In this document: positions 13,362 to 49,965 of the stretch, piece by piece
How the letters are laid out: every line of letters begins with the position of its first letter
Numbering within the stretch: position 1 is the first letter of the stretch
Origin: Xylanimonas allomyrinae
GTDB taxonomy: Bacteria > Actinomycetota > Actinomycetes > Actinomycetales > Cellulomonadaceae
NCBI RefSeq assembly: GCF_004135345.1
Contig: NZ_CP035495.1
Coordinates: forward strand, 1,984,001-2,048,000
DNA length: 64,000 bases
Reading direction: 5' to 3'
The notes under the pieces: model-generated
Told to the model about the DNA's origin: nothing
Databases searched by the model: none
What the model saw: the letters and a program-made list of their open reading frames with translations, nothing else
Position numbers and translations under genes: made by a program

Positions 13362-13400
13362 ACCCGGACCCTCGCGCCGATCAGCGCGAGGAGTCCGGGT
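13362..13400. terminator. bidirectional hairpin between convergent GT2 and dehydratase genes
   Basis: Arms ACCCGGAC-CCTCGCG (13362-13376) and CGCGAGG-A-GTCCGGGT (13385-13400) pair over 15 bp with one bulged A and an 8-base loop. The right arm lies within the last codons of the minus-strand gene, whose stop is at 13381. It probably terminates both transcripts. Confidence 0.7.
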
Positions 13401-14361
13401 GCGCGGTCAGGAGCTCAAGGTCGTGGTCCACCATCCGGCCGACGAGCTCGTCGAACGCGACCGAGGTACTCCACCCGAGTACTCGCTGGGCCTTGCCGGC
13501 GTCGCCAACCTGGACCGCAGCGTCGGCGGGCCGGACGAACCGGGGGTCGAGCTCGACATGGGCCTGCCAGTCGTCGATGCCCGCACGGGCGAAGGCCGCA
13601 CGGACGAAGTCCCCGACCGAGTGGGTCACGCCGGTCGCGACCACGAAGTCGTCCGCCTCGGGATGGCGGACGGCGCGCACCATGGCGTCGACGTAGTCCG
13701 GAGCCCAGCCCCAGTCCCGGCGGGGTTCCAGGTTTCCCATCGCCAGCACGCCACCGCCGTCGCGGGCGATGCGCGCTGCAGCCGCGGTGATCTTGCGCGT
13801 CACGAACGTCTCCGGACGGCGCGGCGACTCGTGGTTGTAGAGCACGCAGGTGGCGACGTGGACACCGCGACTGCGATATACCGCGGCGCTCGTGTGGGCG
13901 TACGCCTTGGCAGCGCCGTACGGCGAGACGGGACGGATCGCGGTCTGCTCGTCCTGGGGAGTGCGGTCGGGCGTCCCGAAGATCTCCGCGCTCGAGGCTT
14001 GCACGACACGCACCTGCTGGCCCGTCTCGTCCTGGAGCCTGCGCGCCGCCTCGAAGACACCCACGGCACCTAGCCCACTGACCAGGCCGGTCAGGACGGG
14101 CTCGTCCCAGGAGAAGCCCACAGAACTGATCCCGCCCAGGTTGTAGATCTCGTCCGGGCGCACCTCCTGCACGATCTGAGCGACACGCCCGGTGTCGCTC
14201 AGATCGCCCAGGTGCGGCGTGACACCTGCTCTGTCAGACAGGAGCACACGCTCGGGCTCGTCACGCACGAGCCCGTGCACGTCCACTCCCTCGGCCACGA
14301 GGCGCTCGGCGAGGTAGGAGCCGTCCTGACCCGTGATGCCTGTGATCAGGGCGGTCGCCAC
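13381..14361 (-). CDS. GDP-mannose 4,6-dehydratase-family SDR (paralog of Gmd)
   Basis: A 326-residue extended short-chain dehydrogenase. The Rossmann motif is TGITGQDGSYLAE. The active-site region QASSAEIFG keeps the Ser and Glu typical of GDP-mannose dehydratases, and SPYGAAKAY supplies the Tyr-x3-Lys pair. NHESPRR and GNLEPRRDWGWAPDYVDAM are family signatures. It is about as long as its neighbour Gmd but more diverged. It may be a second dehydratase or a 4-reductase/epimerase acting on GDP-4-keto-6-deoxymannose; retention of the active-site Glu favours dehydratase chemistry, but this is not certain. Only 3 bp separate it from the upstream gmd. Confidence 0.8.
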   Translation of the reverse strand: MATALITGITGQDGSYLAERLVAEGVDVHGLVRDEPERVLLSDRAGVTPHLGDLSDTGRVAQIVQEVRPDEIYNLGGISSVGFSWDEPVLTGLVSGLGAVGVFEAARRLQDETGQQVRVVQASSAEIFGTPDRTPQDEQTAIRPVSPYGAAKAYAHTSAAVYRSRGVHVATCVLYNHESPRRPETFVTRKITAAAARIARDGGGVLAMGNLEPRRDWGWAPDYVDAMVRAVRHPEADDFVVATGVTHSVGDFVRAAFARAGIDDWQAHVELDPRFVRPADAAVQVGDAGKAQRVLGWSTSVAFDELVGRMVDHDLELLTAHPDSSR

Positions 14362-14364
14362 GGC

Positions 14365-15351
14365 TTACTTGCCAGCCAGGTCGGCCTGCTCGCGCAGGTC
14401 GTTCTCGACCATCATCGTCACGAGGCCCGGGAAGTCGACCTTGCGCTCCCAGCCGAGCTTCTCGTGCGCCTTGGTGGGGTCACCGATGAGCAGGTCGACC
14501 TCGGCAGGCCGCATGAAGCGCGGGTCCTGCTTGACGTACGGGGCCCAGTCCTCGATGCCGACGTGCGTGAACGCGATGTCGAGCAGCTCGCCGATCGAGT
14601 GCGTCTCGCCCGTCGCCACGACGTAGTCGTCGGCCCGATCCTGCTGCAGCATGCGCCACATGGCCTCGACGTAGTCGCCCGCGAAGCCCCAGTCGCGCTT
14701 GGCGTCGAGGTTGCCCAGCGTCACGTCTTCCTGCAGGCCGAGCTTGATGCGCGCGACGGCGGCCGTCACCTTGCGCGTGACGAACTCGAAGCCACGACGC
14801 GGCGACTCGTGGTTGAAGAGGATGCCGCTCGAGGCATGCATCCCATACGACTCGCGGTAGTTGATCGTCATGTAGTGCCCGAAGACCTTCGCCACGCCAT
14901 AGGGCGAGCGCGGCCACAGCAGCGTCGACTCGCGCTGCGGAACCTCCTGGACCTTGCCGAACATCTCCGACGACGACGCCTGGTAGAAGCGAACCTTTTC
15001 CACATCGTCGCCGGCGTACAGACGCACCGCTTCGAGGATGTTCAGCACACCCTTGCCCGTGACGTCCGACGTCACCGATGCGTTCTCCCACGAGTACGCG
15101 ACGAACGAAATCGCACCCAGGTTGTACACCTCGTCCGGCTGCGCGACATTGAGCGCGCGAACAAGAGAAGAAAAGTCGGTCAGGTCGCCGGTGAGCAGCT
15201 TCACACCCGGGACGGTCGCCTCGACCATCTCGCGCTTCGGGTTGTTCTGACCACGGATCAAGCCGTAGACCTCATACCCCTTGCCGAGGAGCAGTTCCGC
15301 AAGGTAGAGGCCGTCTTGTCCAGTGATTCCTGTGATGAGGGCGCGTGCCAT
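14365..15351 (-). CDS. gmd: GDP-mannose 4,6-dehydratase
   Basis: A 328-residue SDR enzyme that converts GDP-D-mannose to GDP-4-keto-6-deoxy-D-mannose. Visible signatures are TGITGQDGLYLAELLL (NADP site), QASSSEMFG (active-site Ser/Glu), SPYGVAKVFGHY (Tyr-x3-Lys), NHESPRRG and GNLDAKRDWGFAGDYVEAM. The ATG at 15351 follows AGAGGAACTC, a good ribosome-binding site; the longer open frame upstream crosses the intergenic region. Its product is the substrate of the GDP-perosamine synthases at 16143 and 24145, which are transcribed divergently from it, so it is the shared entry enzyme of the perosamine branch. Confidence 0.92.
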   Translation of the reverse strand: MARALITGITGQDGLYLAELLLGKGYEVYGLIRGQNNPKREMVEATVPGVKLLTGDLTDFSSLVRALNVAQPDEVYNLGAISFVAYSWENASVTSDVTGKGVLNILEAVRLYAGDDVEKVRFYQASSSEMFGKVQEVPQRESTLLWPRSPYGVAKVFGHYMTINYRESYGMHASSGILFNHESPRRGFEFVTRKVTAAVARIKLGLQEDVTLGNLDAKRDWGFAGDYVEAMWRMLQQDRADDYVVATGETHSIGELLDIAFTHVGIEDWAPYVKQDPRFMRPAEVDLLIGDPTKAHEKLGWERKVDFPGLVTMMVENDLREQADLAGK

Positions 15352-15441
15352 GAGTTCCTCTGTGTGCGTTACGGTCTCGGACGGGTCAACATTACCGGGG
15401 CAATCTTCGACCGAACGGCACACCGCGTCGCAGGACGGTCG

Positions 15442-15477
15442 TTGAGGCGCCACTCCGGCGTCGCCCTAGGTTAGCCT
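15442..15477 (+). promoter_or_regulatory. candidate promoter of module A
   Basis: TTGAGG at 15442-15447 and, 19 bp later, TAGGTT (15467-15472), overlapping a TAGCCT (15472-15477) that ends 6 bp before the ATG at 15484. There is no Shine-Dalgarno sequence, so the message may be leaderless. The same elements with the same spacings are kept in copy 2 although neighbouring bases differ. Confidence 0.5.
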
Positions 15478-15483
15478 CTGCGC

Positions 15484-16146
15484 ATGGCCAAGCCCACTCT
15501 CCCGTCGGGGGCGCCACGTGTCGTCGTCGTCGGCAACTGTGGACACTCTCGTTCCTGCGTCGATGCGTGCAGCGACGAGACCCTTGGCCTGCTGGTGGGC
15601 TGCACGGGTTCCCGGGACGGCGAGCACGGCGAGCTGCGCTATCTCGGAACGGACGCCGTCCTTCCGAGGCTGCTGGCAGAGGGCACGGCCACCCATGCCT
15701 TTGTAGCCATCGGTTCGAACTCGCTGCGCCAGCGACTGACCGCATCGGTGACGGAGCTCGGGTATCAGATGGCGAGCATCGTCAGCCCGACCGCACAGGT
15801 GAGCCGCACCGCGACGGTCGGCGCCGGCGCCGCCGTGCTGCACGGAGCTGTTGTCGGCGCCTTCGCGACGGTCGGCGAGGGTGCGATCATCAACACCGGA
15901 TCATCAATCGATCACGACTGCATCGTGGGAGATTTCGCCCATATCGGTCCGGGTAGTCATCTCGCCGGGGGCGCTATTGTAAGCAGCGGCGCCTTTCTCG
16001 GCGTCGGCGTCAGCGTCATTCCAGGCGTCACCATCGGCGCAGGGGCCGTCATCGGAGCCGGCGCGGTCGTGATCCGCGACGTCCCCGCCGGCACGGTCGC
16101 CGTCGGCATCCCAGCCCGCAACATCCGGAAGGCTCAACCCGAATGA
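15484..16146 (+). CDS. NeuD/PglD-type sugar N-acyltransferase, copy 1 (Cys19 variant)
   Basis: A 220-residue enzyme: an N-terminal Rossmann-like nucleotide-sugar-binding domain (residues about 10-85) and a C-terminal left-handed beta-helix of hexapeptide repeats (about 95-215, e.g. IGAGAVIGAGAVVIRDV). His in the SIDHDC segment corresponds to the catalytic His of PglD-like enzymes. The family transfers an acetyl group from acetyl-CoA to the amine of a UDP- or GDP-amino sugar; next to a GDP-perosamine synthase it probably makes GDP-N-acetylperosamine. In this copy the glycine-rich loop reads GNCGHS (TGT codon), while the otherwise identical copy at 23486 reads GNGGHS. The stop overlaps the next gene (ATGA). 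Confidence 0.87.
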   Translation: MAKPTLPSGAPRVVVVGNCGHSRSCVDACSDETLGLLVGCTGSRDGEHGELRYLGTDAVLPRLLAEGTATHAFVAIGSNSLRQRLTASVTELGYQMASIVSPTAQVSRTATVGAGAAVLHGAVVGAFATVGEGAIINTGSSIDHDCIVGDFAHIGPGSHLAGGAIVSSGAFLGVGVSVIPGVTIGAGAVIGAGAVVIRDVPAGTVAVGIPARNIRKAQPE

Positions 16147-17255
16147 TTCCCGTCGCCAGTCCCGTTCTTTCGGGTATGGAAAAGGCGTACGTCGCCGAGT
16201 GCATCGACAGCACGTGGATCTCTTCCGCCGGAAAGTTCATCGGGAAGTTCGAGGCAGCGTTCGCGGCGCTCTGCGGCTCCGAGTACGCGGTCGCCTGCAA
16301 CAACGGGACGACGGCGCTCCACCTCGCCCTCGCCGCGGTCGGCATCGGCCCCGGGGACGAGGTGATCGTCCCGACGCTCACGTACATCGCGACGGCGAAC
16401 GCGGTCCGCTACTGCGGCGCGACCCCGGTCTTTGCCGACTCCGAGCCGGACACGCTCAATGTCGATCCCACCGACGTGAAGCGCAAGATCACCGAGCGCA
16501 CGAAGGCGATCATCCCCGTGCACCTGTACGGCCACCCGGCCGACATGACCGCGCTCATGAACATCGCGGACGAGCACGGGCTGACCGTCATCGAGGACGC
16601 CGCCGAAGCCCACGGCGCCGAGGTCGACGGCCGCCGGGTCGGCTCCATCGGACACATGGGTGTCTTCTCGTTCTTCGGCAACAAGATCGTCACCACCGGT
16701 GAAGGCGGCGCCGTCACCACCGACGACCCCGACCTCGCTGCACGCCTGCGCCTGCTGCGCGGCCAGGGAATGGACCCCAAGCGCCGGTACTGGTTCCCCG
16801 AGGTCGGCTACAACTACCGCATGACGAACATCGCGGCAGCCATCGGCCTCGCCCAGCTCGAGCAGTTCGACGCTTTCGTGGCCCGCCGCGACGAGATCGG
16901 CGCGCTCTACGACGAGCACCTCGCCGACGTCGAAGGCCTCGCACTCCCGATCCAGCGTCCCGACGCCCGCCGCGTCCACTGGCTGTACACGATCAGCGTC
17001 GAGGACTTCACCGACGCCCAGCGAGACCAGCTCATCGAGGCACTCCACACAGACGGAGTCGAGACCCGCCCAGTCTTCTACCCGCTCCACGTCATGCCCC
17101 CCTACCTGGAAGAGACGCGCTACCCCGTCGCCGAGCACCGCGGCGCCACCGGAATCTCCCTGCCCACACACGTCGGACTCAGCGACCACGACATCCACGA
17201 GGTCTGCGAGAAGCTCATGCGGCATCTGGCCATCGTCCGTGCCGTCCAGGCCTGA
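16143..17255 (+). CDS. per: GDP-perosamine synthase (DegT/DnrJ/EryC1/StrS aminotransferase), copy 1
   Basis: A 370-residue PLP-dependent sugar aminotransferase. The start (PVASPVLSGMEKAYV), STWISSAGKFI, VPTLTYIATANAVRY, HLYGHPADM and RPVFYPLHVMPPY closely follow the pattern of RfbE/Per GDP-perosamine synthases, which aminate GDP-4-keto-6-deoxymannose with glutamate as donor. The PLP lysine is Lys181 in FFGNKIVTTGEGG. Gmd next door supplies the substrate. It is coupled to the acyltransferase by an ATGA overlap. Its last eight or so residues differ from copy 2 (AIVRAVQA versus AVVRGTAN), marking the right edge of the repeat. Confidence 0.9.
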   Translation: MIPVASPVLSGMEKAYVAECIDSTWISSAGKFIGKFEAAFAALCGSEYAVACNNGTTALHLALAAVGIGPGDEVIVPTLTYIATANAVRYCGATPVFADSEPDTLNVDPTDVKRKITERTKAIIPVHLYGHPADMTALMNIADEHGLTVIEDAAEAHGAEVDGRRVGSIGHMGVFSFFGNKIVTTGEGGAVTTDDPDLAARLRLLRGQGMDPKRRYWFPEVGYNYRMTNIAAAIGLAQLEQFDAFVARRDEIGALYDEHLADVEGLALPIQRPDARRVHWLYTISVEDFTDAQRDQLIEALHTDGVETRPVFYPLHVMPPYLEETRYPVAEHRGATGISLPTHVGLSDHDIHEVCEKLMRHLAIVRAVQA

Positions 17256-17267
17256 GCGCGGCCCTTG

Positions 17268-18089
17268 ATGAACACCGAAACCAGCACTCCGGAAGCCGAA
17301 CTGACGCCACCTTCGGCGCCGCCTGCCGTCGAGCCGTCGCTCCGTTCGTCTCGCCGACGCCAGACCTTTCGGGACATCCTGGAGGCCCCTGTCGAACGAC
17401 TCGTCGTCGAGGCACGCGTGGAACCTCGGCGCCGACGACTGCTCGGGGTCGACGTCTCCGAGTTCGGATCCGCGCCGGCGGAAGCAGTAGTCACCACGCT
17501 GTACCGGGAGATCCTTGGGCGCGAGCCCGACGAGCCTGGCCTCATCGCCTGGTCGAACCACCTCACCGAAGGCACACCGATCGACGAGTTGGCCAGGGGT
17601 CTTGCCTCTTCGGATGAGGCAAGGAACGCGTCGCCAGAGCAGCAGGTCCGCGCGCAGCGCCTGCTCCATCGGATCGGCCTGTTCAGAACACTCGAGGACC
17701 TGGGTGCGTACTCCGCACACGCGTACTCCGGGGGCCGACCTGGCCTCTGTGCAGACCAGGTCTTCGTCGCGGCACTGTACGAGGTGGCACTTCGTCGACA
17801 ACCGGCGCCGGCGGAGCTCGACGCAGAGGCCGCGAAGCTGGAGCACGGCGTCTCGCGTGAATGGATGCTCCGTGCTTTCGCGAGCCGCCGCGAAGTGAAG
17901 TGTCGCTTGATCGGGGCGCGCGGCCGGACGCCGAGCAGCGTTCTGCGCTACCTGGTCCACCGCGTCGGATACCTGCGAACCTTCCGCGACATGGTGAACG
18001 CAGCCGAGTCCCGAAGGATCGCGGCACTCACCCGCGCCTTCGCCGATCACGCCGAGATACCCGACCAGCACGACGGAAGGACTGTCTGA
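17268..18089 (+). CDS. cytosolic DUF4214-repeat protein
   Basis: A 273-residue protein with no signal peptide or membrane helix. After a Ser/Pro/Arg-rich N-terminus it has two DUF4214-like helical repeats: residues about 72-118 (VTTLYREILGREPDEPGL) and about 163-208 (VAALYEVALRRQPAPAELD). The C-terminus is basic. It corresponds to residues about 305-548 of the 896-residue fusion in module B, where the same unit is joined to an FkbM domain in front and a GT4 behind. DUF4214 has no established activity. The ATG at 17268 is preferred over an adjacent TTG. It may scaffold the following glycosyltransferase, which starts 2 bp after its stop (inference). Confidence 0.75.
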   Translation: MNTETSTPEAELTPPSAPPAVEPSLRSSRRRQTFRDILEAPVERLVVEARVEPRRRRLLGVDVSEFGSAPAEAVVTTLYREILGREPDEPGLIAWSNHLTEGTPIDELARGLASSDEARNASPEQQVRAQRLLHRIGLFRTLEDLGAYSAHAYSGGRPGLCADQVFVAALYEVALRRQPAPAELDAEAAKLEHGVSREWMLRAFASRREVKCRLIGARGRTPSSVLRYLVHRVGYLRTFRDMVNAAESRRIAALTRAFADHAEIPDQHDGRTV

Positions 18090-18091
18090 TC

Positions 18092-19141
18092 GTGCGAGTC
18101 GCCATCGCTTCCACGACCGTACCCAACATCGATGGAGGCGGCCGCCTGATCGTCCGGTGGACCGCTGACGCGATTCGGGCCGCCGGCCACGAGGTCGAAG
18201 AGTTCTACTTCCCGTTCCCGCCCGGAGTCCGCCCCACGATGGCCGCTCTGGTCGGGTTGAGAGCCGTGCCGCTCGCGACGAGCTGTGATCGGCTCATCGC
18301 GATCCGGTGGCCCGCGCATCTGATCCGCCACGAGAACAAGGCGACGTGGTTCATCCACCACTATCGCGAGTTGTTCGACCTCTGGGACACCAAGTACAGA
18401 ACGCATCCGGACACACCGGAGACCCGAGCGTACAGACGCGCCTTCCGCCAGTTCGACAACCTCGGGCTTGGCGAGTCTCAAGACGTGTTCACCAACTCAC
18501 TGATCGTGCGTGACCGCGTGAAGCGGTACAACGAGATCGACGCGACACCCCTCTTTCCCCCGCTAGGGGGTGACACCTCGCGGTTCCGGAACGACGGGAC
18601 CGGCGACTTCATCTTCTACCCGAGCCGCGTCACTCTCATCAAGCGGCAGTTGCTCGCCGTAGAAGCGATGCGTCACACGACATCCGGCGTGCGTCTCGTC
18701 ATTGCCGGCAAGCCCGAGAACCAAGGCTACGCGGACCTCCTCCGGGAGAGGGTCCGCGAGCACGGCCTGGAGGACAAGGTCACCTTGGAACTCGATTGGA
18801 TGGAGGAGTCGCTCAAGGTCGCACTCATGGCGTCGAGCCTCGCAGTGGCATACCTTCCGTCGGACGAGGACTCGTACGGGTATCCATCCCTGGAGGCGTC
18901 GCACTCCGGCAAACCCATCGTGACGGTGGCCGACGCCGGAGGGGCGCTCGAGTTCGTCCGCGACGGCGTCGAGGGTTTCGTCGCAGAGCCAGATCCGAAG
19001 GCGCTGGCAGCGGCATTCGACCAACTCTACGAAGACAAGTCCGCCAGCGAGCGCATGGGTCTCGCGAGCTACGACCGGCGAGCGGAGCTTGGCATCTCCT
19101 GGGAGAACGTCGTTCCTCGCCTGCTTGGAGTCGCCCCGTGA
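18092..19141 (+). CDS. GT4-type glycosyltransferase (module A, first)
   Basis: A 349-residue GT-B enzyme. The acceptor domain opens with RVAIASTTVPNIDGGGRLI. The donor domain contains IFYPSRVTLIKRQLLAVEAM and the nucleotide-sugar motif DEDSYGYPSLEASHSGKP, with the EX7E-like pair Asp/Glu and Glu. It aligns over its full length with residues 549-896 of the fusion protein at 25259-27949. The GTG at 18092 lies 2 bp after the DUF4214 gene; its stop overlaps the next start (GTGA). The donor sugar cannot be read from sequence; GDP-perosamine is a candidate because the module begins with its synthase (inference). Confidence 0.85.
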   Translation: MRVAIASTTVPNIDGGGRLIVRWTADAIRAAGHEVEEFYFPFPPGVRPTMAALVGLRAVPLATSCDRLIAIRWPAHLIRHENKATWFIHHYRELFDLWDTKYRTHPDTPETRAYRRAFRQFDNLGLGESQDVFTNSLIVRDRVKRYNEIDATPLFPPLGGDTSRFRNDGTGDFIFYPSRVTLIKRQLLAVEAMRHTTSGVRLVIAGKPENQGYADLLRERVREHGLEDKVTLELDWMEESLKVALMASSLAVAYLPSDEDSYGYPSLEASHSGKPIVTVADAGGALEFVRDGVEGFVAEPDPKALAAAFDQLYEDKSASERMGLASYDRRAELGISWENVVPRLLGVAP

Positions 19142-20163
19142 AACTGCTGCTCGCCACCAACGCCGCCCCGTTCGTCAGGGGCGGCGCAGAACTGATGGTC
19201 GACCGGCTCATGCGCGAGCTTCGCGACGCCGGCCACGAGGTCGACCTGCTGCGGATCCCGCTGGGCAACACCCCTGAGGAGATCGTCGACTCCACGATCT
19301 ACGCATCACTGCTTCAGGCCGTCAACGTCGACCGTGTCATCGGGCTCAAGTACCCCGCCTACCTCATTCCCCATGAGGATGTAGTCATCTGGCTGGTTCA
19401 CCAGTTCCGCCAGGCCTACGAGCCGCCACCTGTGGGCTGGCCGTCCGATCCCCAGCTTGACCGCGTTGTTGACGTCGTGCGCACCGCCGATGCGAATGCA
19501 CTCCCACGCGCGAAGCGCATCTACGCGATCTCACCCATGATCGCCGACCGCCTTGAGGAGAACAGTGGCATCCGCGCCGGTATTCTCATGACCCCGCCAC
19601 ACTCCGACACCGACTACCGCACGGCGCCCGCCGAGGACTTCATCGTCGCGCTCGGGCGAGTGTCCGACGGCAAGCGGCAACGTCTCGCGATCGAAGCGAT
19701 GCGCCACGTGCGTTCCGATGTCAGGCTGGTCGTCGCAGGCGCGGCCGAGAGCCCTCAGGTCGCCGCTGACCTTCGGAACCTGATCGAGACCAACTCGCTG
19801 GGCGACCGCGTCGAGCTGATCGATCGGTTCATCTCGGACGACGAGAAGGTCGACCTGCTCTCGAGGTGTCTGGGATCGGTCTACCTACCGATGAACGAAG
19901 ACTCGTACGGATACGTCTGCTACGAGGCGGCGATGTCGCGCAAACCTTCGGTCACGTGCTCGGACTCCGGCGGGACGCTGACGCTGGTGAAGGACGGTCG
20001 CACCGGCCTTGTTCCCTCGCCGCATCCGCAGCGCATCGCCTCCGCATTCGACAAGCTTGCAGGCGACCGAGACCGCGCCCGCGAGATGGGCGAGAACGCC
20101 TACGCGCTCGCGCTCGAACTCGACCTGTCCTGGGCCCAAGTCGTGAAGGAGCTGACCCGTTGA
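19138..20163 (+). CDS. GT4-type glycosyltransferase (module A, second)
   Basis: A 341-residue GT-B enzyme. The N-terminus KLLLATNAAPFVRGGAELM has the glycine-rich acceptor-domain loop. FIVALGRVSDGKRQRLAIEAM opens the donor domain, and NEDSYGYVCYEAAMSRKP is the donor-binding motif. It overlaps the preceding gene by GTGA and the next by TTGA. Its ortholog in module B (27946-28970) is disrupted by a frameshift, so this is the only intact version in the window. Confidence 0.86.
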   Translation: MKLLLATNAAPFVRGGAELMVDRLMRELRDAGHEVDLLRIPLGNTPEEIVDSTIYASLLQAVNVDRVIGLKYPAYLIPHEDVVIWLVHQFRQAYEPPPVGWPSDPQLDRVVDVVRTADANALPRAKRIYAISPMIADRLEENSGIRAGILMTPPHSDTDYRTAPAEDFIVALGRVSDGKRQRLAIEAMRHVRSDVRLVVAGAAESPQVAADLRNLIETNSLGDRVELIDRFISDDEKVDLLSRCLGSVYLPMNEDSYGYVCYEAAMSRKPSVTCSDSGGTLTLVKDGRTGLVPSPHPQRIASAFDKLAGDRDRAREMGENAYALALELDLSWAQVVKELTR

Positions 20164-21476
20164 GAGTCGCGATGGTGACACCGATGGCTCCAGAGAGCGC
20201 GATCGCCGACGTCATGACGCAGGCCGTCGCCCATCTCGCCACCGAATGGGAGATCGACATCTGGTGCCCGGGGTCGCGGACGCTCCGGCCGTCGCCCGTC
20301 AGAGTCGTTCCTTTCGCCCAGCCAGATCTTGAGACTGCGACGGCCTTAGGCGCCTATGACCTGGTCATCTACGCCCTGGGCGACAGCTCCTTCCATGCCG
20401 CGATCCTGCCGCTGGCGAGGCGCGTGCCCGGCCTGGCTGTGGTCCACGATGCCTCACTGACGAACCTTGTCCTGTTCACGGCAAGGCAGGACGAATGGCT
20501 CGAGGACCTCGTCGCCCACGTCCGCCGCGAGCACGGAGCGGACAAGGCCGCCTACCTTCGTGACCCCGGGGACAGCGGTGGTACAGAGACATGGCTACGG
20601 TTGTGCGCAGAGGTAACGCTCGCTGACGTCGCGGTCGAGCACTCTCTGGGAGCGGTGGTCCACTCTCGATGGCACGCGCAGCAAATCGATGGCCGCCTGC
20701 TCGGAGACGTCTCGGTCGCACGGCTCCCTGTCCCCCACGCCCACGGCGGGAACGACGAAGAGATTCGCGAGGTCATTCAGGACCGCCTCGACGCGCTCGA
20801 TGACGACGCTGTGCTTCTCGTGACCGTAGGGCACGTCAACGCCAACCGTGGCCTTGGCGTGCTGCTCGCTGCGATAGCCGAAGATCCTGCGCTTAAGAAC
20901 GTTCACCTGTGGGCAGTCGGGACTCACGGGGCACAGGTAGGGACCGTCGTGCGCCTTGCCGACGAGTTAGGACTCGGAGCCCGGTTTGAGGTTCCCGGCC
21001 GCGTCTCCGACGGTGAGCTTCGTGCCATCCTTCACCGCGCTGACATTGCGGCAGCCCTGCGAGAGCCGGTCCTTGAGGGCCAGTCAGCCAGCGTCCTGAC
21101 CCAGATGCAGGCCGGGCTACCGGTCATTGTCTACAATCACGCACACTATGCGGAGTTGCCCGACGACGCGGTGGTCAAGGCCTCTCCGGTAGACCGGATC
21201 GCATCCGTCCGGGAGGCGATCAGGTCACTGGCACACGACTGTGATCTGCGCACCGCGAAAGGAACGGCCGCACGGGAGTACGTCCTGGGCGGTTCGACCG
21301 GGGCGGCCTACGCAGACGGCATCCGGCGGGCCGCCGATCTCGCTCTGGCCCGCCGGCCTTACGTCCACCTGGCCGAAGACCTAACCAGCCAACTCAGGCG
21401 GAATGGACTGTCTCGAAAGAGTGTCGTCATCGACAACGTGACATCGATCTCGCTCGAACTGTTCGACCTCGACTGA
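20160..21476 (+). CDS. GT-B glycosyltransferase (module A, third)
   Basis: A 438-residue protein starting at a TTG whose last bases form the stop of the previous gene (TTGA). The start is supported by the module B ortholog, which begins at the same place with ATG. It opens RVAMVTPMAPESAIADVM and has a donor-domain start LLVTVGHVNANRGLGVLL and a late HADIAAALREPVLEGQSAS segment in place of a classical EX7E motif. It is therefore a GT4-like but divergent glycosyltransferase. Paralogs are at 28967-30286 (intact) and 32664-33546 (truncated remnant). It is the last gene of module A. Confidence 0.8.
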   Translation: MRVAMVTPMAPESAIADVMTQAVAHLATEWEIDIWCPGSRTLRPSPVRVVPFAQPDLETATALGAYDLVIYALGDSSFHAAILPLARRVPGLAVVHDASLTNLVLFTARQDEWLEDLVAHVRREHGADKAAYLRDPGDSGGTETWLRLCAEVTLADVAVEHSLGAVVHSRWHAQQIDGRLLGDVSVARLPVPHAHGGNDEEIREVIQDRLDALDDDAVLLVTVGHVNANRGLGVLLAAIAEDPALKNVHLWAVGTHGAQVGTVVRLADELGLGARFEVPGRVSDGELRAILHRADIAAALREPVLEGQSASVLTQMQAGLPVIVYNHAHYAELPDDAVVKASPVDRIASVREAIRSLAHDCDLRTAKGTAAREYVLGGSTGAAYADGIRRAADLALARRPYVHLAEDLTSQLRRNGLSRKSVVIDNVTSISLELFDLD

Positions 21477-21889
21477 GCGCCCCCCATATCGAGGATCCCG
21501 GCAGCTGATCCTGGTTCACTCCAGGATTTCCGAGTCGATGCGGCTCGTCCCAGATGAGCGTGTAGTCGGGTCGCTGGTGGCGCGGCTGGTGTTGGCGCGT
21601 CGGTGACCGGGTAGGGGTCGAGGCCTTCCGAAGATGGGGGTTCTCACGCCAACCCATCCGAAAGACCTCGACGTGGACGAACCTACCTCGACACGCCCGC
21701 CACTGGGCCCGATGTGTCACGACACCATCGACGCCCCCACACCCTCATCTGCGATGAGCCTACAAGGCCCCAAGGGGCCCGGCATGCCCCCTTCGGCCTT
21801 CTGACCGACTAGCACGTCGCCCGCATCGCGGCTGTGCCGCAACGGGCGTACGTCACCAACGCGGCCCGGGTCCGTCATGTGCGCATCAG
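21477..21889. other. gene-free stretch with probable mobile-element remnant
   Basis: No convincing coding region. Positions about 21611-21676 form a long imperfect inverted repeat: GTCGAGGCCTTCCGA on the left and TCCGAAAGACCTCGAC on the right, around a loop containing CTCACGCC. A short frame starting at the following GTG (about 21672) reads VDEPTSTRPPLGPMCHDT and stops after some 40 codons. This looks like the truncated 5' end of another insertion sequence that I cannot assign to a family. Confidence 0.35.
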
Positions 21890-21898
21890 TGTCTCGCG

Positions 21899-22894
21899 TC
21901 AAGCGGCTGGCAGGATTTGGGTGTTCTCAAAGTTGGGGATGGTGGGGTCGGCCAGGCCGAGGTGCACCTCCAGGGGCCGGTTCCAGGCGATCGCCTCGTG
22001 CGGGCGCACGGTGTTGTAGTCGTCGCGGTAGTCGTCGGCGTGCTCGACGAGGGCCAGGACGTCGTCGATCTCTTCGAGGAAGAGCCGCTCGTACTTCAAT
22101 GACTGGAAGCCGCGTTCGCGTGACCCGTTCTGCCCGGGCGTGCGCACGCGGGTGCGCACGTGCCGCAGCTCGGGGTGGGCGGTGATGAAGTGCTCGAACC
22201 TAAGCGAGCGGAACGGGCCGCCGTTGTCCGTGACGACCGTGACCGCCGAGATGACGTTCCCGTCGCCGTCTCGCTCGCAGGCGTCGATCAGCGGGCGGCC
22301 GAACATCGTCTCGTAGTCGGTCAGCGCGAGCTCGATCGCGGCGATGGCGTCGTGCTGGTTCGCGGTCGGGGACACATGCCAGGGGTGCTCGTACTTGCTC
22401 CAGTAGTCCCGGCACCCGGCGATCCGCCACGTCCCGCCGGTGGTGGTCTCGAACTCGGAGAAGTCCAGCTGCCACACCTGGTTCGGCCCCGTCGGCTCGG
22501 TCGCGAACGCCGCCTTCCTACGCGCGGCGAGCTGGCGGCGTTCACGCTGGTAGGCCGCGGGCAGGATCAGCCCCTCGTCGCGCAGCAGCCGCAGCACGGA
22601 CGCCTGCGATGCGGTGTGACCCTCGTAGCGGCACATGGCCCAGATCTTGCGGTGCCCCCACGCGGGATGCTTGAGCGCGTGCCGACGGGCAGCCTCGGCG
22701 ACACTCTCGCGGGCCGGGAGCGGCCACGGCCCCTTCGTCGGTGCTCCGGTGCGGGCGCGGGCCTGCCAGCGCCGCCACGTGCGTTCGGGCACGCCGATCA
22801 GAGAGCAGAACCTCGTGGTCGGCATGCCCGCATCCAGACGGATCACCTCGAGGTCCTCGAAGGGCCCAGCCGGCCCTCCGCGGACTTCTTCCAC
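21899..22894 (-). CDS. IS3-family transposase OrfB (DDE/rve integrase domain)
   Basis: The open frame spans up to 331 residues. The N-terminal part carries an HTH_21-like segment, and the C-terminal two-thirds the retroviral-integrase-type catalytic core. The core shows QLDFSEFE (first Asp), VTDNGGPFR (second Asp) and NGSRERGFQSLKYE (Glu), the DD(35)E triad. The frame overlaps OrfA by 52 bp in another frame, so the active enzyme is expected to be an OrfAB fusion made by programmed -1 frameshifting, as in other IS3 elements. The C-terminus (VHLGLADP) ends 9 bp inside the left inverted repeat. Confidence 0.9.
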   Translation of the reverse strand: MEEVRGGPAGPFEDLEVIRLDAGMPTTRFCSLIGVPERTWRRWQARARTGAPTKGPWPLPARESVAEAARRHALKHPAWGHRKIWAMCRYEGHTASQASVLRLLRDEGLILPAAYQRERRQLAARRKAAFATEPTGPNQVWQLDFSEFETTTGGTWRIAGCRDYWSKYEHPWHVSPTANQHDAIAAIELALTDYETMFGRPLIDACERDGDGNVISAVTVVTDNGGPFRSLRFEHFITAHPELRHVRTRVRTPGQNGSRERGFQSLKYERLFLEEIDDVLALVEHADDYRDDYNTVRPHEAIAWNRPLEVHLGLADPTIPNFENTQILPAA

Positions 22895-23160
22895 ACCCGG
22901 ACCTCCAGGTGCGCCTCGCCCAAGGCCTGCGTCAACTCGGCGACCTCGGACTCCAGCTGCTGCTCCCGCGTCGAGGGGCCCGACTTCCCCGCCGCCAGGC
23001 CGGTCTTGCCAGCCTCGAGGAATTGCCGCTTCCAGTTCCCGACCGACTGCTCGGACACCTTCGCCCGCCGGGCGGCCTCGGCGACGGTGACCTCCCCGGC
23101 CAGGACCGACAACACGATCCTGGTCTTCTCCTCAGCCGGAACGGCCGCTGGTCTTGCCAT
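22843..23160 (-). CDS. IS3-family transposase OrfA (helix-turn-helix)
   Basis: A 105-residue DNA-binding protein. The HTH is at about residues 20-50 (VTVAEAARRAKVSEQSVGNWK). It is followed by a leucine-zipper-like stretch (EQQLESEVAELTQALGEAHL), as in OrfA proteins that bind the terminal repeats and dimerise. It begins 69 bp inside the right end of the element and overlaps OrfB. No textbook A6G slippery run is seen; GGAAGAAG in the overlap is the only A-rich candidate. Confidence 0.88.
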   Translation of the reverse strand: MARPAAVPAEEKTRIVLSVLAGEVTVAEAARRAKVSEQSVGNWKRQFLEAGKTGLAAGKSGPSTREQQLESEVAELTQALGEAHLEVRVWKKSAEGRLGPSRTSR

Positions 23161-23229
23161 GAACGATCAGACTCCTCACAGGTCAGGCCCGCAACCAACG
23201 GGCCCTGCCACATAGCCTGACGCGCGACA

Positions 23230-23419
23230 CCAGAGGCCATAGCACTATTCGTGGAGCGTCGTGCAGTTCTTCCGAATGCCGGAGTCCGAGATCGCTACCA
23301 GGCGCCTCGGGACGCGACCAGGGCCAACATCACCTTCGTCACCATCGCACTCGCCGCGACCCTCGTCCACGCTATCTTCAACCAATCCGTCATGTGCACC
23401 ACGGCAAATGAGCAAACTT
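23230..23419. other. gene-free gap between IS3 element and repeat copy 2
   Basis: 190 bp with less G+C than its surroundings and no convincing gene. It separates the right end of the IS from the left edge of the direct repeat. No similarity to the sequence upstream of copy 1 was seen. Confidence 0.4.
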
Positions 23420-23443
23420 GCACACCGCGTCGCGGGACGGTCG

Positions 23444-23479
23444 TTGAGGCGCCACCCCGGCGCTGCCTTAGGTTAGCCT
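23444..23479 (+). promoter_or_regulatory. candidate promoter of module B
   Basis: TTGAGG (23444-23449), a 19-bp spacer, TAGGTT (23469-23474) and the overlapping TAGCCT (23474-23479), 6 bp before the ATG at 23486. It is identical in layout to the promoter of module A, while the spacer has four substitutions. Confidence 0.5.
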
Positions 23480-23485
23480 CTGCGC

Positions 23486-24148
23486 ATGGCCAAGCCCACT
23501 CTCCCGTCGGGGGCGCCACGTGTCGTCGTCGTCGGCAACGGTGGACACTCTCGTTCCTGCGTCGATGCGTGCAGCGACGAGACCCTTGGCCTGCTGGTGG
23601 GCTGTACGGGTTCCCGGGACGGCGAGCACGGCGAGCTGCGCTATCTCGGAACGGACGCCGTCCTTCCGAGGCTGCTGGCAGAGGGCACGGCCACCCATGC
23701 CTTTGTAGCCATCGGTTCGAACTCGCTGCGCCAGCGACTGACCGCATCGGTGACGGAGCTCGGGTATCAGATGGCGAGCATCGTCAGCCCGACCGCACAG
23801 GTGAGCCGCACCGCGACGGTCGGCGCCGGCGCCGCCGTGCTGCACGGAGCTGTTGTCGGCGCCTTCGCGACGGTCGGCGAGGGTGCGATCATCAACACCG
23901 GATCATCAATCGATCACGACTGCATCGTGGGAGATTTCGCCCATATCGGTCCGGGTAGTCATCTCGCCGGGGGCGCTATTGTAAGCAGCGGCGCCTTTCT
24001 CGGCGTCGGCGTCAGCGTCATTCCAGGCGTCACCATCGGCGCAGGGGCCGTCATCGGAGCCGGCGCGGTCGTGATCCGCGACGTCCCCGCCGGCACGGTC
24101 GCCGTCGGCATCCCAGCCCGCAACATCCGGAAGGCTCAACCCGAATGA
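23486..24148 (+). CDS. NeuD/PglD-type sugar N-acyltransferase, copy 2
   Basis: A 220-residue enzyme with an N-terminal nucleotide-sugar-binding domain and a C-terminal hexapeptide beta-helix, differing from copy 1 only at residue 19. Here the canonical glycine-rich loop GNGGHS is intact, so this is the copy more likely to be fully active. The expected reaction is acetyl-CoA-dependent N-acylation of GDP-perosamine. It overlaps the following aminotransferase gene by ATGA. Confidence 0.88.
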   Translation: MAKPTLPSGAPRVVVVGNGGHSRSCVDACSDETLGLLVGCTGSRDGEHGELRYLGTDAVLPRLLAEGTATHAFVAIGSNSLRQRLTASVTELGYQMASIVSPTAQVSRTATVGAGAAVLHGAVVGAFATVGEGAIINTGSSIDHDCIVGDFAHIGPGSHLAGGAIVSSGAFLGVGVSVIPGVTIGAGAVIGAGAVVIRDVPAGTVAVGIPARNIRKAQPE

Positions 24149-25257
24149 TTCCCGTCGCCAGTCCCGTTCTTTCGGGTATGGAAAAGGCGTACGTCGCCGA
24201 GTGCATCGACAGCACGTGGATCTCTTCCGCCGGAAAGTTCATCGGGAAGTTCGAGGCAGCGTTCGCGGCGCTCTGCGGCTCCGAGTACGCGGTCGCCTGC
24301 AACAACGGGACGACGGCGCTCCACCTCGCCCTCGCCGCGGTCGGCATCGGCCCCGGGGACGAGGTGATCGTCCCGACGCTCACGTACATCGCGACGGCGA
24401 ACGCGGTCCGCTACTGCGGCGCGACCCCGGTCTTTGCCGACTCCGAGCCGGACACGCTCAATGTCGATCCCACCGACGTGAAGCGCAAGATCACCGAGCG
24501 CACGAAGGCGATCATCCCCGTGCACCTGTACGGCCACCCGGCCGACATGACCGCGCTCATGAACATCGCGGACGAGCACGGGCTGACCGTCATCGAGGAC
24601 GCCGCCGAAGCCCACGGCGCCGAGGTCGACGGCCGCCGGGTCGGCTCCATCGGACACATGGGTGTCTTCTCGTTCTTCGGCAACAAGATCGTCACCACCG
24701 GTGAAGGCGGCGCCGTCACCACCGACGACCCCGACCTCGCTGCACGCCTGCGCCTGCTGCGCGGCCAGGGAATGGACCCCAAGCGCCGGTACTGGTTCCC
24801 CGAGGTCGGCTACAACTACCGCATGACGAACATCGCGGCAGCCATCGGCCTCGCCCAGCTCGAGCAGTTCGACGCTTTCGTGGCCCGCCGCGACGAGATC
24901 GGCGCGCTCTACGACGAGCACCTCGCCGACGTCGAAGGCCTCGCACTCCCGATCCAGCGTCCCGACGCCCGCCGCGTCCACTGGCTGTACACGATCAGCG
25001 TCGAGGACTTCACCGACGCCCAGCGAGACCAGCTCATCGAGGCACTCCACACAGACGGAGTCGAGACCCGCCCAGTCTTCTACCCGCTCCACGTCATGCC
25101 CCCCTACCTGGAAGAGACGCGCTACCCCGTCGCCGAGCACCGCGGCGCCACCGGAATCTCCCTGCCCACACACGTCGGACTCAGCGACCACGACATCCAC
25201 GAGGTCTGCGAGAAGCTCATGCGGCATCTGGCGGTCGTACGCGGCACGGCCAACTGA
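24145..25257 (+). CDS. per: GDP-perosamine synthase, copy 2
   Basis: A 370-residue PLP aminotransferase identical to copy 1 except for the last residues (AVVRGTAN). It carries the same PLP lysine (Lys181, FFGNK) and the same RfbE/Per signature segments. It converts GDP-4-keto-6-deoxymannose plus glutamate to GDP-perosamine. The next gene, the FkbM fusion, begins at a GTG 1 bp after its stop, so acyltransferase, synthase and fusion probably form one operon. Confidence 0.9.
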   Translation: MIPVASPVLSGMEKAYVAECIDSTWISSAGKFIGKFEAAFAALCGSEYAVACNNGTTALHLALAAVGIGPGDEVIVPTLTYIATANAVRYCGATPVFADSEPDTLNVDPTDVKRKITERTKAIIPVHLYGHPADMTALMNIADEHGLTVIEDAAEAHGAEVDGRRVGSIGHMGVFSFFGNKIVTTGEGGAVTTDDPDLAARLRLLRGQGMDPKRRYWFPEVGYNYRMTNIAAAIGLAQLEQFDAFVARRDEIGALYDEHLADVEGLALPIQRPDARRVHWLYTISVEDFTDAQRDQLIEALHTDGVETRPVFYPLHVMPPYLEETRYPVAEHRGATGISLPTHVGLSDHDIHEVCEKLMRHLAVVRGTAN

Positions 25258-25258
25258 G

Positions 25259-27949
25259 GTGGACACGTTCGTCTCGTACGCGCAGCACGGCGAGGACGTC
25301 ATCCTCTGGCGAGCCCTCGGTGCTCGCTCCGGCATTACGTACGTCGATGTCGGCGCCTACGACCCGACTGAGGAATCCGTCACCCGCGCGCTCTACGAAC
25401 GCGGCTGGCGAGGGGTGAACATCGAGCCGCAGCCCGAGCGGCTGGCGGCGTTCGAGAACGACCGCCCCGACGACACGAACCTGGCGATTGCGATCGGCTC
25501 CAAGGACGGCTCGGTGGAGCTCGTCATCCCGTCGAACCCCGGCTGGACCACGGTCCAAGGCACCGGGTCGCTCGTCTCGGACGATCCGGCCGCGCACCGT
25601 ATCCGGGTGCCGATGCGTCGGCTCGGCACGCTGCTGCCAGAACTCGGGCTCGAACACGTCGATGTTCTGAAGATCGACGTCGAATGCGGAGAGTCGGACG
25701 CGGTACGGGGCCTGCTTGACGGTCCGGTACGCCCGACGGTCTGCGTCATCGAAGGCGTCGGCCCGGGGTGCGGCCGCACCGAGGGTGACCGCGCGGTGGA
25801 ACTGCTCGTCGCGGCGGGCTACACGCACTGCATGTTCGACGGCCTCAACCACTACCTCACCACGGACCCCGCTCTCATCGCGGCACTGTCGGTGCCCGCT
25901 AACCCTATCGACGGGTACGTGCACCGCGCGATCCCCGCGTTCGCGACCGAACGCAGCCACCTCCACGAGACCATCGCGGCGCTGACCGCCGAAAACCTCG
26001 AACTGCGCAGCAAGCTCGCGACATCATCGAGCGAGGGCAACGGCGCAGCGCCCGAGGAGCCCGCAGCGACGTCGTCTGAGCAGACCACGGCGACGACCGC
26101 GGCCACCGACGATGCACCTCTGCCCGTCTCCGCGCCTGCGCCCACGGCCGCATCGCCGCGACCCGCGCCAAGAGCTGCGCCTCACATCGTCGACGACGAG
26201 CGTGCCCGCCGCCGCCGCGCGCTCTTCCTGCGGCTCATCGGCACCAGGGTCGCGGCCGACGCCGGACGGCAACCCGCCGTCGACATCCCTCACCTGTTCG
26301 ACGCCAGCCCTGAGTCCGTCGTCCGGACGCTCTACCTCTCCGTTCTGGGTCGCGAGCCCGACGACAGCGGGAGCGCCTCCTGGATCCACGAGATCGCCAA
26401 CGGAAGGTCGCCGATCGACGTGGCGCGCGTACTGGCCCGTTCGGACGAGGCGGCTGCCGCGTCAGAGAGCCAGCGTCGTCGCGCCGATGCCTTCATAGAG
26501 CGACTGGACCGGTTCGGCCTTCTGGACAGCTTTGGGCTCGGCACGTTCTACTCGAAGGGCCACAGCGCATCGGTCGTCGCCGACCAGATCTTCATCGAGT
26601 CTCTCTACGAGGTTGCCCACCTGCGCCGTCCTACTCACGCCGAGCTGGAGAACGACCTGAACAGGATCCGCATCGGCGTCGGCCGCCAATGGATGCTGCG
26701 CGCATTCGCCGACCGGCCCGAGGCACGCGCCCGCCTCCTCGGCACGGCCGGCGGGGTGCGTACGCGGATGAAGCGCCTGGGCGCCCGCATGTCGTACCGC
26801 CGAGATTTCCAGACACTGGTCGTCGCGGTCGAGTCCCGCCGCATCGCTGCGCTCCTCACGGACCTCAGCGCCACCGACCACTCGATCGCCGGGGGAACTG
26901 AGATGCGCGTCATTCTCGCGACCACCACGATCCCGCACATCTCAGGTGGCGACCGGCTCATCGTTCGCTGGACGGCGGAGGAGCTTCGCGCCCGCGGGCA
27001 CGAGGTCGAGGAGTTCTACCTGCCGTTCCCGCCATCTGCCCGGTACACGCTGCCCGCGCTCGTCGGGCTGCGCTCGACGCCGTTTGCGGGCGCCGGCGAC
27101 CGGCTCATCGCCGTCCGATGGCCGGCGCACATCCTTCGGCACGAGAACAAGGCGACGTGGTTCATCCACCACTTCCGCACGCTGTTCGACCTGTGGGACT
27201 CCCCGTACCGCGACGTCCCGGACAACGCCGAGGGCTACGCGTACCGTGACGCGATCCGCCGCATCGACAACCTCGGGCTCGCCGAGTCGCGCGACGTCTT
27301 CTCGAACTCCAACGTGGTTCGAGACCGCCTGCGCGAGTACAACGACGTCGAGGCGACGCCCCTGCTCCCTCCCATCGGCGGGGACACTACGCGCTTCCAC
27401 ACGGACGCCTACGGCGACTACATCTTCTACCCGAGCCGGGTCGCGCCCATCAAGCGGCAACTGCTCGCGGTCGAGGCGATGCTGTACACCCAGTCGGGCG
27501 TGAAGCTCGTCATCGGCGGCTTGGCCGACGAGGACTACCAGGAGGACATCGTCCGGTTCGTGCGCGAGCACGACCTGGAGGGCAAGGTCGACCTTCGTCT
27601 CGGCTGGATGCCGGAGGACGAGAAGGTCGACCTGCTGGCCGGGTGCCTGGCAGTCGCCTACCTACCTCGCGACGAGGACTCGTACGGGTACACGTCGCTC
27701 GAGGCGTCGCACAGCCGCAAGGCGATCGTCACCGTGACGGACTCCGGCGGTGCCCTGGAGTTCGTCCGGGACGGCATCGAGGGGCGTGTCGTCGCCCCGA
27801 CGCCTCATGCGCTGGCGGCGGCGTTCGACGCGCTTTATGAGGACCGCCAGGCCGCCGAGAGGCTGGGCTACGCGAGCCACGATCGACGCGCGGCGCTCGG
27901 CATCACCTGGGACAACGTGATCCCGCATCTCCTGGGGGTGACTGAATGA
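25259..27949 (+). CDS. FkbM methyltransferase - DUF4214 - GT4 three-part fusion
   Basis: An 896-residue protein. Residues 1-225: FkbM-family SAM methyltransferase (FVSYAQHGEDVILWRALG, YVDVGAYDP, VLKIDVECGES). Residues about 262-310: Ala/Pro/Thr-rich linker. Residues about 350-395 and 445-490: two DUF4214-like repeats (VRTLYLSVLGREPDDSGS). Residues 549-896: GT4 domain (ILATTTIPHISGGDRLI, DEDSYGYTSLEASHSRKA). In module A the DUF4214 and GT4 parts are separate genes and the FkbM part is absent. At the join, GGGGGA lies 7 bp before Met549, so the GT4 could also be made alone by internal initiation. Expected roles are sugar O-methylation and sugar transfer; FkbM acceptor specificity is unknown. 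The stop overlaps the next ATG. Confidence 0.85.
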   Translation: MDTFVSYAQHGEDVILWRALGARSGITYVDVGAYDPTEESVTRALYERGWRGVNIEPQPERLAAFENDRPDDTNLAIAIGSKDGSVELVIPSNPGWTTVQGTGSLVSDDPAAHRIRVPMRRLGTLLPELGLEHVDVLKIDVECGESDAVRGLLDGPVRPTVCVIEGVGPGCGRTEGDRAVELLVAAGYTHCMFDGLNHYLTTDPALIAALSVPANPIDGYVHRAIPAFATERSHLHETIAALTAENLELRSKLATSSSEGNGAAPEEPAATSSEQTTATTAATDDAPLPVSAPAPTAASPRPAPRAAPHIVDDERARRRRALFLRLIGTRVAADAGRQPAVDIPHLFDASPESVVRTLYLSVLGREPDDSGSASWIHEIANGRSPIDVARVLARSDEAAAASESQRRRADAFIERLDRFGLLDSFGLGTFYSKGHSASVVADQIFIESLYEVAHLRRPTHAELENDLNRIRIGVGRQWMLRAFADRPEARARLLGTAGGVRTRMKRLGARMSYRRDFQTLVVAVESRRIAALLTDLSATDHSIAGGTEMRVILATTTIPHISGGDRLIVRWTAEELRARGHEVEEFYLPFPPSARYTLPALVGLRSTPFAGAGDRLIAVRWPAHILRHENKATWFIHHFRTLFDLWDSPYRDVPDNAEGYAYRDAIRRIDNLGLAESRDVFSNSNVVRDRLREYNDVEATPLLPPIGGDTTRFHTDAYGDYIFYPSRVAPIKRQLLAVEAMLYTQSGVKLVIGGLADEDYQEDIVRFVREHDLEGKVDLRLGWMPEDEKVDLLAGCLAVAYLPRDEDSYGYTSLEASHSRKAIVTVTDSGGALEFVRDGIEGRVVAPTPHALAAAFDALYEDRQAAERLGYASHDRRAALGITWDNVIPHLLGVTE

Positions 27950-31863: not shown

Positions 31864-32663
31864 GGGTTCGGGGGCACCGCCACCACGAAGTGAACCTCGC
31901 ACACCTGACCGTCCGTTCTTGATCGTTCCCGATCGTCGGCACGTTGAATGCCCTCCCCGACATGGCGATGCGGCTCATCGTGCCGGGCAGGGAGCCGGCC
32001 CAAACTGGGCCGGCGGAACGTGACCGCAGGCGGGCTGGCCCTCAGTTCCTCATGAAGGGAGTCTTCGCCGCGATGGCCGATGTTCTGCAGGCGACCCGAC
32101 AGCGGGCCATCGAGTTCGCGGCTACTACGCCCGCGAGCCTCCGGCTCATCCATCGTCTGTTCGTCACCGTTCCCAGTGCGCATTTGCCCACGGAGTCCCG
32201 GACGCAGAGCGTCTCTGCTGGCAGGTAGGGCAGGTGCCACCATCGAGACAATCATCTGGAACCACTCACCGCACCGTCGCCTCACCTTTTGAACGCTGGC
32301 ATCTGTACACGCTGTCGTTTGACCACTCGACCGCGCCGAACATGGACCCTTTCCATGCCCCAGCGCCAACATCAGTCAGCAAGGAACTGGAGAGCGGCTA
32401 TAGTCATTCCGTGCCCGAGCCGCTGCCAACGCCACACGCGATCAGCATCGCGGCAACCCGTCTATCGGAGAAAACTGTCGCTCCGGGCGTTGATCACAAA
32501 CGTCACTCCGATCGCCCAGGACCCCTTGTTGCCAGGAGGCCTCAAGGCTCATGCCAGAGAGGGCCTGCGGGGCGTGGCTACCTTCGGTTTCGCGGCCGCC
32601 AGAGAGCGAGTCGGCGCTGTCGAGCGTTCGCCACGCGATGTCACGCTGACTCCAGGGCCAGGC
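31864..32663. other. decayed region without intact genes
   Basis: 800 bp with no frame I can defend. Short fragments resemble the protein encoded at 33599: around 32299-32330 one frame reads YTLSFDHSTAP (compare FTLSLDHAATV), and around 32626-32650 one reads ERSPRDVTLTP (compare ECSPREVTLTL). These appear to be scrambled remains of a duplicated membrane-protein gene. Positions about 31960-32240 show no recognisable similarity. Confidence 0.45.

Positions 32664-46763: not shown

Positions 46764-49965
<3,202 letters not shown>

Follow-up and report, generated by a model that had tools for sequence, protein, structure and literature searches.

Near-identical acetyltransferase and aminotransferase genes in two diverged modules of a predicted surface-polysaccharide locus of Xylanimonas allomyrinae

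We analysed a window of 64,000 nucleotides (nt) from the chromosome of Xylanimonas allomyrinae (contig NZ_CP035495.1, positions 1,984,001 to 2,048,000) that contains two glycosyltransferase (GT) modules, each beginning with the same pair of genes, a sugar acetyltransferase and a GDP-perosamine synthase-like aminotransferase (perA). The two pairs, which we call the cassette, are nearly identical, while the remainder of the two modules is about as diverged as modules of different genera. All coordinates are positions in the window. Genes were called by a custom script, and the region from 30 to 36 kb is only partly resolved.

Gene content of the two modules

Module 1 lies on the forward strand and consists, in order, of the acetyltransferase (15484-16146), perA (16143-17255), a DUF4214 protein (17268-18089, PF13946) and three glycosyltransferases that all match PF00534: GT1, of the GT4 type (18092-19141), GT2 (19138-20163) and GT3 (20160-21476). 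Module 2, on the same strand, opens with its own acetyltransferase (23486-24148) and perA (24145-25257), followed by a gene in which an FkbM methyltransferase, a DUF4214 domain and GT1 are fused (25259-27949; PF05050, PF13946 and PF00534). A one-base deletion near the 5' end disrupts GT2 of this module (27946-28970), while the module 1 copy is open, and GT3 follows at 28967-30286.

Both acetyltransferases exceed the cut-off (160.8 bits) of TIGR03570, the NeuD/PglD family model, with 186.7 bits for the module 1 copy and 190.5 bits for the module 2 copy. With copy 2 as the query, the nearest solved relative is a perosamine N-acetyltransferase (4ea7, E 1.9e-42). The perA product belongs to the DegT/DnrJ/EryC1 family (PF01041, 432.5 bits for module 1; the module 2 copy matches the same family), and its nearest solved relatives, again queried with copy 2, are the perosamine synthetases 3bn1 (E 3.5e-133), 3dr7 and 3dr4, all with E of 3e-132 or better, the next structure following at 2.5e-87. 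The NCBIfam LegC model matches perA with 378 bits, under its cut-off of 420. Divergent from module 1 and adjoining it on the reverse strand are two GDP-mannose 4,6-dehydratase-like genes (13381-15351, PF16363) with 414 and 291 bits to the NCBIfam gmd model, so that both miss its cut-off of 415, one of them by 1 bit. In the established pathway gmd-type enzymes supply GDP-4-keto-6-deoxymannose. The preliminary description of this DNA had named the genes perosamine cassettes, and the nearest solved relatives together with the adjoining gmd-like genes favour this label as a prediction short of proof; the cassette likely makes perosamine.

The two acetyltransferases differ at residue 19, which is glycine in copy 2 and in seven of seven relatives and cysteine in copy 1. 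The residue presumably sits in the nucleotide-sugar-binding loop, and the copy with Cys19 scores 3.8 bits below the copy with Gly19 against TIGR03570. Both copies would serve the same GDP-perosamine supply. Farther along, the window also encodes a nucleotidyltransferase, a dehydratase, additional glycosyltransferases and an ABC exporter whose C-terminal domain is of the Wzt type. Judged by its predicted genes this is a surface-polysaccharide locus.

Between the modules we find an IS3-like insertion sequence (IS; 21889-23229, reverse strand) that scores below its family cut-off and is present in three genome copies, the two others at 99%. A remnant of a second element, 150 bp long (21539-21688, strand not assigned), also lies there and has a 97% match at a single further position of the chromosome (C1 1909572-1909721). 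The remnant resembles an insertion-sequence end, which by eye we take to be of the ISL3 type. Direct repeats of 12 bp on either side of the IS (21871-21882 and 23386-23397) may be due to chance and were set aside. Beyond module 2, upstream of the nucleotidyltransferase gene, lies a decayed third GT3 on the forward strand (32642-33540, frame break near 32803) with 80% DNA identity to that of module 2 over 840 aligned bases, a hint of a further former module. A second copy of open reading frame 30355 was sought downstream and none was shown.

Extent and age of the shared cassette

Positions 15418-17230 and 23420-25232, both on the forward strand, align without gaps over 1,813 bp at an offset of exactly 8,002, with seven mismatches (99.6% identity). 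The block includes 66 bp upstream of the acetyltransferase, the entire acetyltransferase gene and perA into codon 363. The mismatches fall at 15432, 15454, 15461, 15462 and 15466, upstream of the acetyltransferase, and at 15538 and 15603, in its codons 19 and 40; the first of the coding changes is the cysteine to glycine difference and the second is silent. The preliminary description had reported near-identical cassettes 8,002 bp apart with about five promoter and two coding differences, and the base-by-base alignment gives the same count. A sigma-70-like promoter was sought at 15340-15500 and none was found.

The mismatches are unevenly placed. All seven lie in the first 186 of the 1,813 bp (P ~1e-7 under uniform placement), and their density is 5/66 upstream compared to 2/1,747 in the coding part (Fisher P 1e-6). 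The remaining 1627 bp (15604-17230 compared to 23606-25232) are free of mismatches and would represent the latest homogenised tract. Because the mismatches cluster at the left end, the block is composed of at least two ages, or its upstream part diverges under a pressure of its own.

Within the 3.85-Mb assembly the full-length block occurs at these two places only, and the three other matches are 26-44 bp long. Self-comparison with megablast of 1.2 Mb (C1 1,600,001-2,800,000, 31% of the assembly) yielded four repeats with a length of 300 bp or more and an identity of 90% or more: the cassette, the IS, an island of DUF4214 sequence described below and a satellite that resembles a low-complexity tandem array.

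We estimated the synonymous divergence (dS) between the modules by the Nei-Gojobori method, using for GT2 the part after the frame break. It is 0.01 for the acetyltransferase and 0.02 for perA, compared to 1.14 for DUF4214, 0.91 for GT1, 1.15 for GT2 and 1.74 for GT3. The acetyltransferase has one synonymous change in about 183 sites; perA has none before its tail, its dS of 0.02 arising wholly in the last 8 codons. To four relatives of other genera the dS is 0.64-0.81 for perA and ranges from 0.65 to saturation for the glycosyltransferases, and at the protein level perA is 66-72% identical to seven relatives (E ≤ 1e-120), far from the near identity of the cassettes within this genome. The two modules are thus roughly as diverged as modules from different genera, with a cassette that is nearly unchanged. 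A recent homogenisation of an older duplicate had been proposed in the preliminary description, together with a comparison of synonymous divergence between the cassette and the genes that follow it. The two are far from equal (0.01-0.02 versus 0.91-1.74), in line with that proposal.

The transition out of the block is abrupt. The sequences just after it are unrelated, the DUF4214 protein in module 1 and the FkbM fusion in module 2, and similarity between the modules resumes at 18134 and 26945, at about 74% over 2.1 kb. The moderate similarity previously described for the downstream glycosyltransferases is therefore real but not immediate: it starts about 0.9 kb on in module 1 and 1.7 kb on in module 2, and the genes directly downstream of the cassettes are not homologous.

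The right edge lies inside perA codon 363, 25 bp before the stop, and leaves two diverged tails (17231-17255 in module 1 and 25233-25257 in module 2, forward strand). Codons 363-370 read AIVRAVQA in module 1 and AVVRGTAN in module 2, such that the aminotransferases differ at five of their last seven residues. From the edge onwards the codons are GCC/GCG, ATC/GTC, GTC/GTA and CGT/CGC, giving A/A, I/V, V/V and R/R, and then diverge up to the same stop position. The tails match at 12 of 25 bases, a level reached by 3.4% of stretches drawn at random from the window; a coinciding stop is found in 1.2% and both together in 0.1%. An A-x-V/L-R ending of perA recurs in three of the seven relatives (genomes G550, G517 and G541). 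Each copy seems, from these comparisons, to have kept its own old perA end.

Origin of the identity between the cassettes

Single modules are found in other genera. Among 221 genomes of the family, perA matches at E ≤ 1e-120 occur in eight, one of them the source genome, which has two such genes, a state seen in 0 of the 220 others. In the stretches that we fetched, G047 and G541 carry a single module in which FkbM follows perA, resembling module 2, and G550 and G568 a single module that lacks FkbM, resembling module 1. The acetyltransferase-perA pair is also present in G038, G104 and G517, accompanied by more distant sets of glycosyltransferases. G022 has part of a perA, located where a contig ends (75% over 185 residues), that falls below the E ≤ 1e-120 cut-off and was not used. 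A tree of concatenated DUF4214, GT1, GT2 and GT3 (6 rows) places modules 1 and 2 as sisters with support of 100/99. Because four relatives from other genera carry one module and modules 1 and 2 group as sisters, the duplication would be old and the identity recent.

Searches beyond these genomes added little. Ten other genomes of the genus, four of them only 65-79% complete, gave no perA match above 45% identity (E ≤ 1e-40) and no GT3 at E ≤ 1e-30. A single-protein search of genome contigs, which reaches close relatives only, returned one distant perA (Paenibacillus caui, 54%). Plasmid matches came from 17 records, all below 60% protein identity and with no DNA match. Among 396 genomes of the order, searched at E ≤ 1e-130 with the best 5 candidates per genome, only the source genome was recovered; this search missed family relatives that pass the cut-off and is weak evidence.

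We consider it highly probable that the module is an old duplicate whose acetyltransferase-perA segment has recently undergone ectopic gene conversion, probably in more than one episode. In this lineage the duplication of the module (acetyltransferase, perA, an optional FkbM, DUF4214 and three glycosyltransferases) would be ancient, and the copies would since have diverged. More recently, the acetyltransferase-perA segment of one copy would have been overwritten by that of the other through homologous recombination. An earlier episode would have included the 66 bp upstream, and a later one would have spanned 1.6 kb or more. Since each perA keeps its own diverged end, the right edge looks like a conversion tract stopping within homologous genes, unlike an insertion junction. 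A second homogenised segment 20 kb away also counts in favour of conversion. We infer both the number of episodes and that the exchange was conversion rather than an exchange of modules between strains. Its direction is weakly suggested to be from module 2 to module 1: in its G+C content at third codon positions (GC3, 0.90) and in its dS to relatives, perA is close to module 2, whose GT1 has a GC3 of 0.905.

Several observations weigh against this explanation. The GC3 of the acetyltransferase is 0.77, unlike that of module 2 GT1, which leaves the direction unsure. The sisterhood of the modules is based on just 6 ingroup rows; in single-gene trees its support is 95/98 for GT3, 91/94 for DUF4214 and 83/91 for GT2, with GT1 not resolving it, and in a tree of GT1 and GT2 with outgroups it is 83/90 and not starred. 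The two modules occur together in no other genome found, which makes concerted evolution of the cassette untraceable across lineages. The perA tail is just 25 bp long, and the A-x-V/L-R pattern is absent from four of the seven relatives. Finally, no residual homology is detectable past 15418, and this left edge taken alone could be an insertion junction; it does not discriminate conversion from transfer.

One alternative explanation is that a whole module was newly imported from a related strain, the near-identical acetyltransferase-perA serving as a crossover arm and the 8-kb unit entering by a single crossover. The layout of repeat, insert and repeat suits such an insertion, module types with and without FkbM each occur singly in other genomes of the family, and insertion-sequence remains sit between the modules. 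Nonetheless the donor would need an identical cassette together with a diverged perA tail and glycosyltransferases at a dS of about 1, and modules 1 and 2 are sisters in the concatenated tree. We regard this import as improbable, yet it is the strongest of the competing explanations.

Much less probable still is a new insertion of the cassette and its promoter beside a module that had none. The left edge, which takes in the 66-bp upstream region and ends abruptly, would fit this. Against it, both copies have diverged yet plausible perA C-termini that stop at the same place, and four relatives hold the cassette at this very position of a single module. The preliminary description had left the choice between conversion and cassette transfer; conversion fits better, and transfer is weakened by a right edge that lies inside perA with a separate diverged C-terminus in each copy. 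An assembly artefact, in which one cassette was doubled in the contig, would be a very small risk: the sequence is known from its assembly, but the copies show seven differences, distinct flanks and distinct tails, and both lie within one contig of 3.82 Mb. Purifying selection alone on old paralogs is the least credible explanation, since synonymous sites are identical too while perA reaches a dS of 0.64-0.81 to the four relatives; that both copies encode core pathway enzymes does not save it, and we count it as already refuted.

That nucleotide-sugar genes of polysaccharide clusters can undergo gene conversion is already known, and the cassette would be a further case. For manB of Escherichia coli, the partner in the exchange is reportedly the colanic-acid copy, at a separate locus; here conversion would act on two adjacent genes together, within one locus whose modules lie 8 kb apart. 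Gene conversion of manB is described for the E. coli O157-antigen gene clusters (PMC3158064). In the galactose-initiated O-antigen clusters of Salmonella, according to the accessible part of that report (PMC3715488), the genes for nucleotide diphosphate sugars likewise form conserved modules able to evolve in concert as the central glycosyltransferase genes diverge; that comparison is between serogroups, ours inside one chromosome. The searchable literature, queried for gene conversion in loci for polysaccharides and for perosamine clusters with duplication, yielded nothing further of relevance.

Recombination between the two repeats could plausibly remove 8,002 bp comprising one DUF4214 gene, three glycosyltransferases and the IS. 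The deletion would leave a single cassette in front of module 2, whose GT2 is broken.

A second identity island in DUF4214 domains

The other homogenised segment is formed by 44697-45270 and 46785-47358, both on the reverse strand and 96% identical. They are the C-terminal DUF4214 regions (PF13946) of the protein at 44679-46136 and of an amidase at 46764-48773. The N-terminal parts of the two proteins are unrelated, one being an Amidase_2 domain, and by eye both N-termini suggest secretion.

DUF4214 matches at E ≤ 1e-20 are present in 30 of the 221 genomes, and we retrieved 20 stretches, which came from 19 of the 29 genomes other than the source. Analysed were 19 of these stretches (L086 was left out) and the window; since the analysed stretches of G541 and G147 contained a single domain each, pairs were counted over 18 genomes, the source genome included. 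In eight of the 18 (the window and relatives L077-L084) the two domains of the pair are closer to each other (71-100% of residues) than to the domains of the remaining genomes of the set (at best 55-84%); as fetching favoured genomes with two nearby matches, this fraction is no estimate for the family. The identity within the pair is 100% in G038, G570 and G104, 99.5% in G563, 94% in the source genome (G000) and in G099, 88% in G517 and 71% in G533. In DNA the pairs of G517 and G533 are just 83% and 74% alike, and the G533 pair has support of 92/81. By group codes these eight genomes span five genera. The other ten are G129 (63% within the pair, 70% to G099) and nine genomes (L087-L095) in which the amidase and its partner carry two old DUF4214 types, 31-39% alike. 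The homogenised state may have arisen when one of these types was replaced by the other. G099 has, in addition, a third and distant DUF4214 domain (38-40%).

SpoIID-type partners of the amidase were identified by Pfam in five genomes (G038, G563, G104, G550 and G099) and elsewhere by N-terminal similarity. Between seven genomes with such a pair the N-terminal parts are 47-60% alike for the amidase and 45-61% for SpoIID, and for this reason both proteins appear to be old. Six of the seven have a homogenised DUF4214 domain. In the source genome and G570 the partner of the amidase is another protein type. As far as sequences can tell, this is concerted evolution confined to one domain across two non-homologous proteins. 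Independent captures of DUF4214 in each lineage would be a less economical explanation where both partners are orthologous.

All eight genomes with perA are among the 30 of 221 with a DUF4214 domain (hypergeometric 4.7e-8, a value that ignores kinship). In these eight genomes a DUF4214 gene and the nearest perA share a contig and are separated by 11-22 kb, and DUF4214 also occurs inside the glycosyltransferase modules themselves. Against a simple link with the glycan, the perA genomes include both homogenised (G000, G038, G104 and G517) and two-type (G047, G550 and G568) members.

Compared to structures in the Protein Data Bank (PDB), a DUF4214 profile matches phycobilisome linkers, the best at 2.7e-14 in a score summed over weak repeats, which suggests a related fold for the two domains (region 44694-47378, reverse strand). 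Some of the relatives' domains match Pfam PBS_linker_poly. A single-sequence search with the protein at 44679-46136 gave no match at E ≤ 1. The S-layer protein RsaA of Caulobacter binds perosamine O-antigen. A role for DUF4214 as a perosamine-binding domain of the RsaA type was considered and is unsupported, with no S-layer protein among 42 PDB matches at E ≤ 10. The domain might target or pair the wall enzymes in a strain-specific manner.

We tentatively propose, as a possibility that we hold at somewhat less than even, that the surface-glycan loci of the family are repeatedly homogenised and that this is retained for its function. The C-terminal DUF4214 domains of the peptidoglycan amidase and its SpoIID-type partner would be kept alike in each genome by recurrent conversion while diverging between genomes, because both enzymes would have to bind one wall glycan that is specific to the strain and produced by the locus beside them, and the perosamine cassette would be another product of the same process.

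Bacillus subtilis has a comparable pair of amidase and SpoIID modifier, LytC and LytB/CwbA, which are said to share another wall-binding repeat. Titles cited in a paper on that pair (PMC10653849) describe a modifier that resembles the autolysin and one that stimulates amidases; homogenisation is unmentioned in the accessible text of this paper. The searchable literature on SpoIID with LytB/LytC contained nothing relevant. A survey of long-lasting concerted evolution in prokaryotes lists, in its available part, 26 genes whose paralogs are, as here, nearer within a genome than to their orthologs, synonymous sites included (PMC6053082). The terms 'cell wall', 'polysaccharide' and 'amidase' are absent from the main text of that survey, and the DUF4214 case differs from it in concerning one domain in otherwise non-homologous proteins. 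We found no description of domain-limited concerted evolution of DUF4214 in the searchable literature, a coverage that leaves out most subscription journals.

Taken together, the cassette offers a clean case, with usable outgroups, in which sugar-supply genes have been overwritten to identity as the enzymes that place the sugars are still diverging. It also exemplifies repeats through which loci of this type could lose modules or gain new ones. Of wider reach is the second island, where one domain common to two otherwise unrelated, presumably secreted proteins shows concerted evolution in several genera, and lies near variable glycan genes where examined. This pattern provides a sequence-based clue to the role of DUF4214, which may be the matched binding of a wall glycan or of a partner protein.

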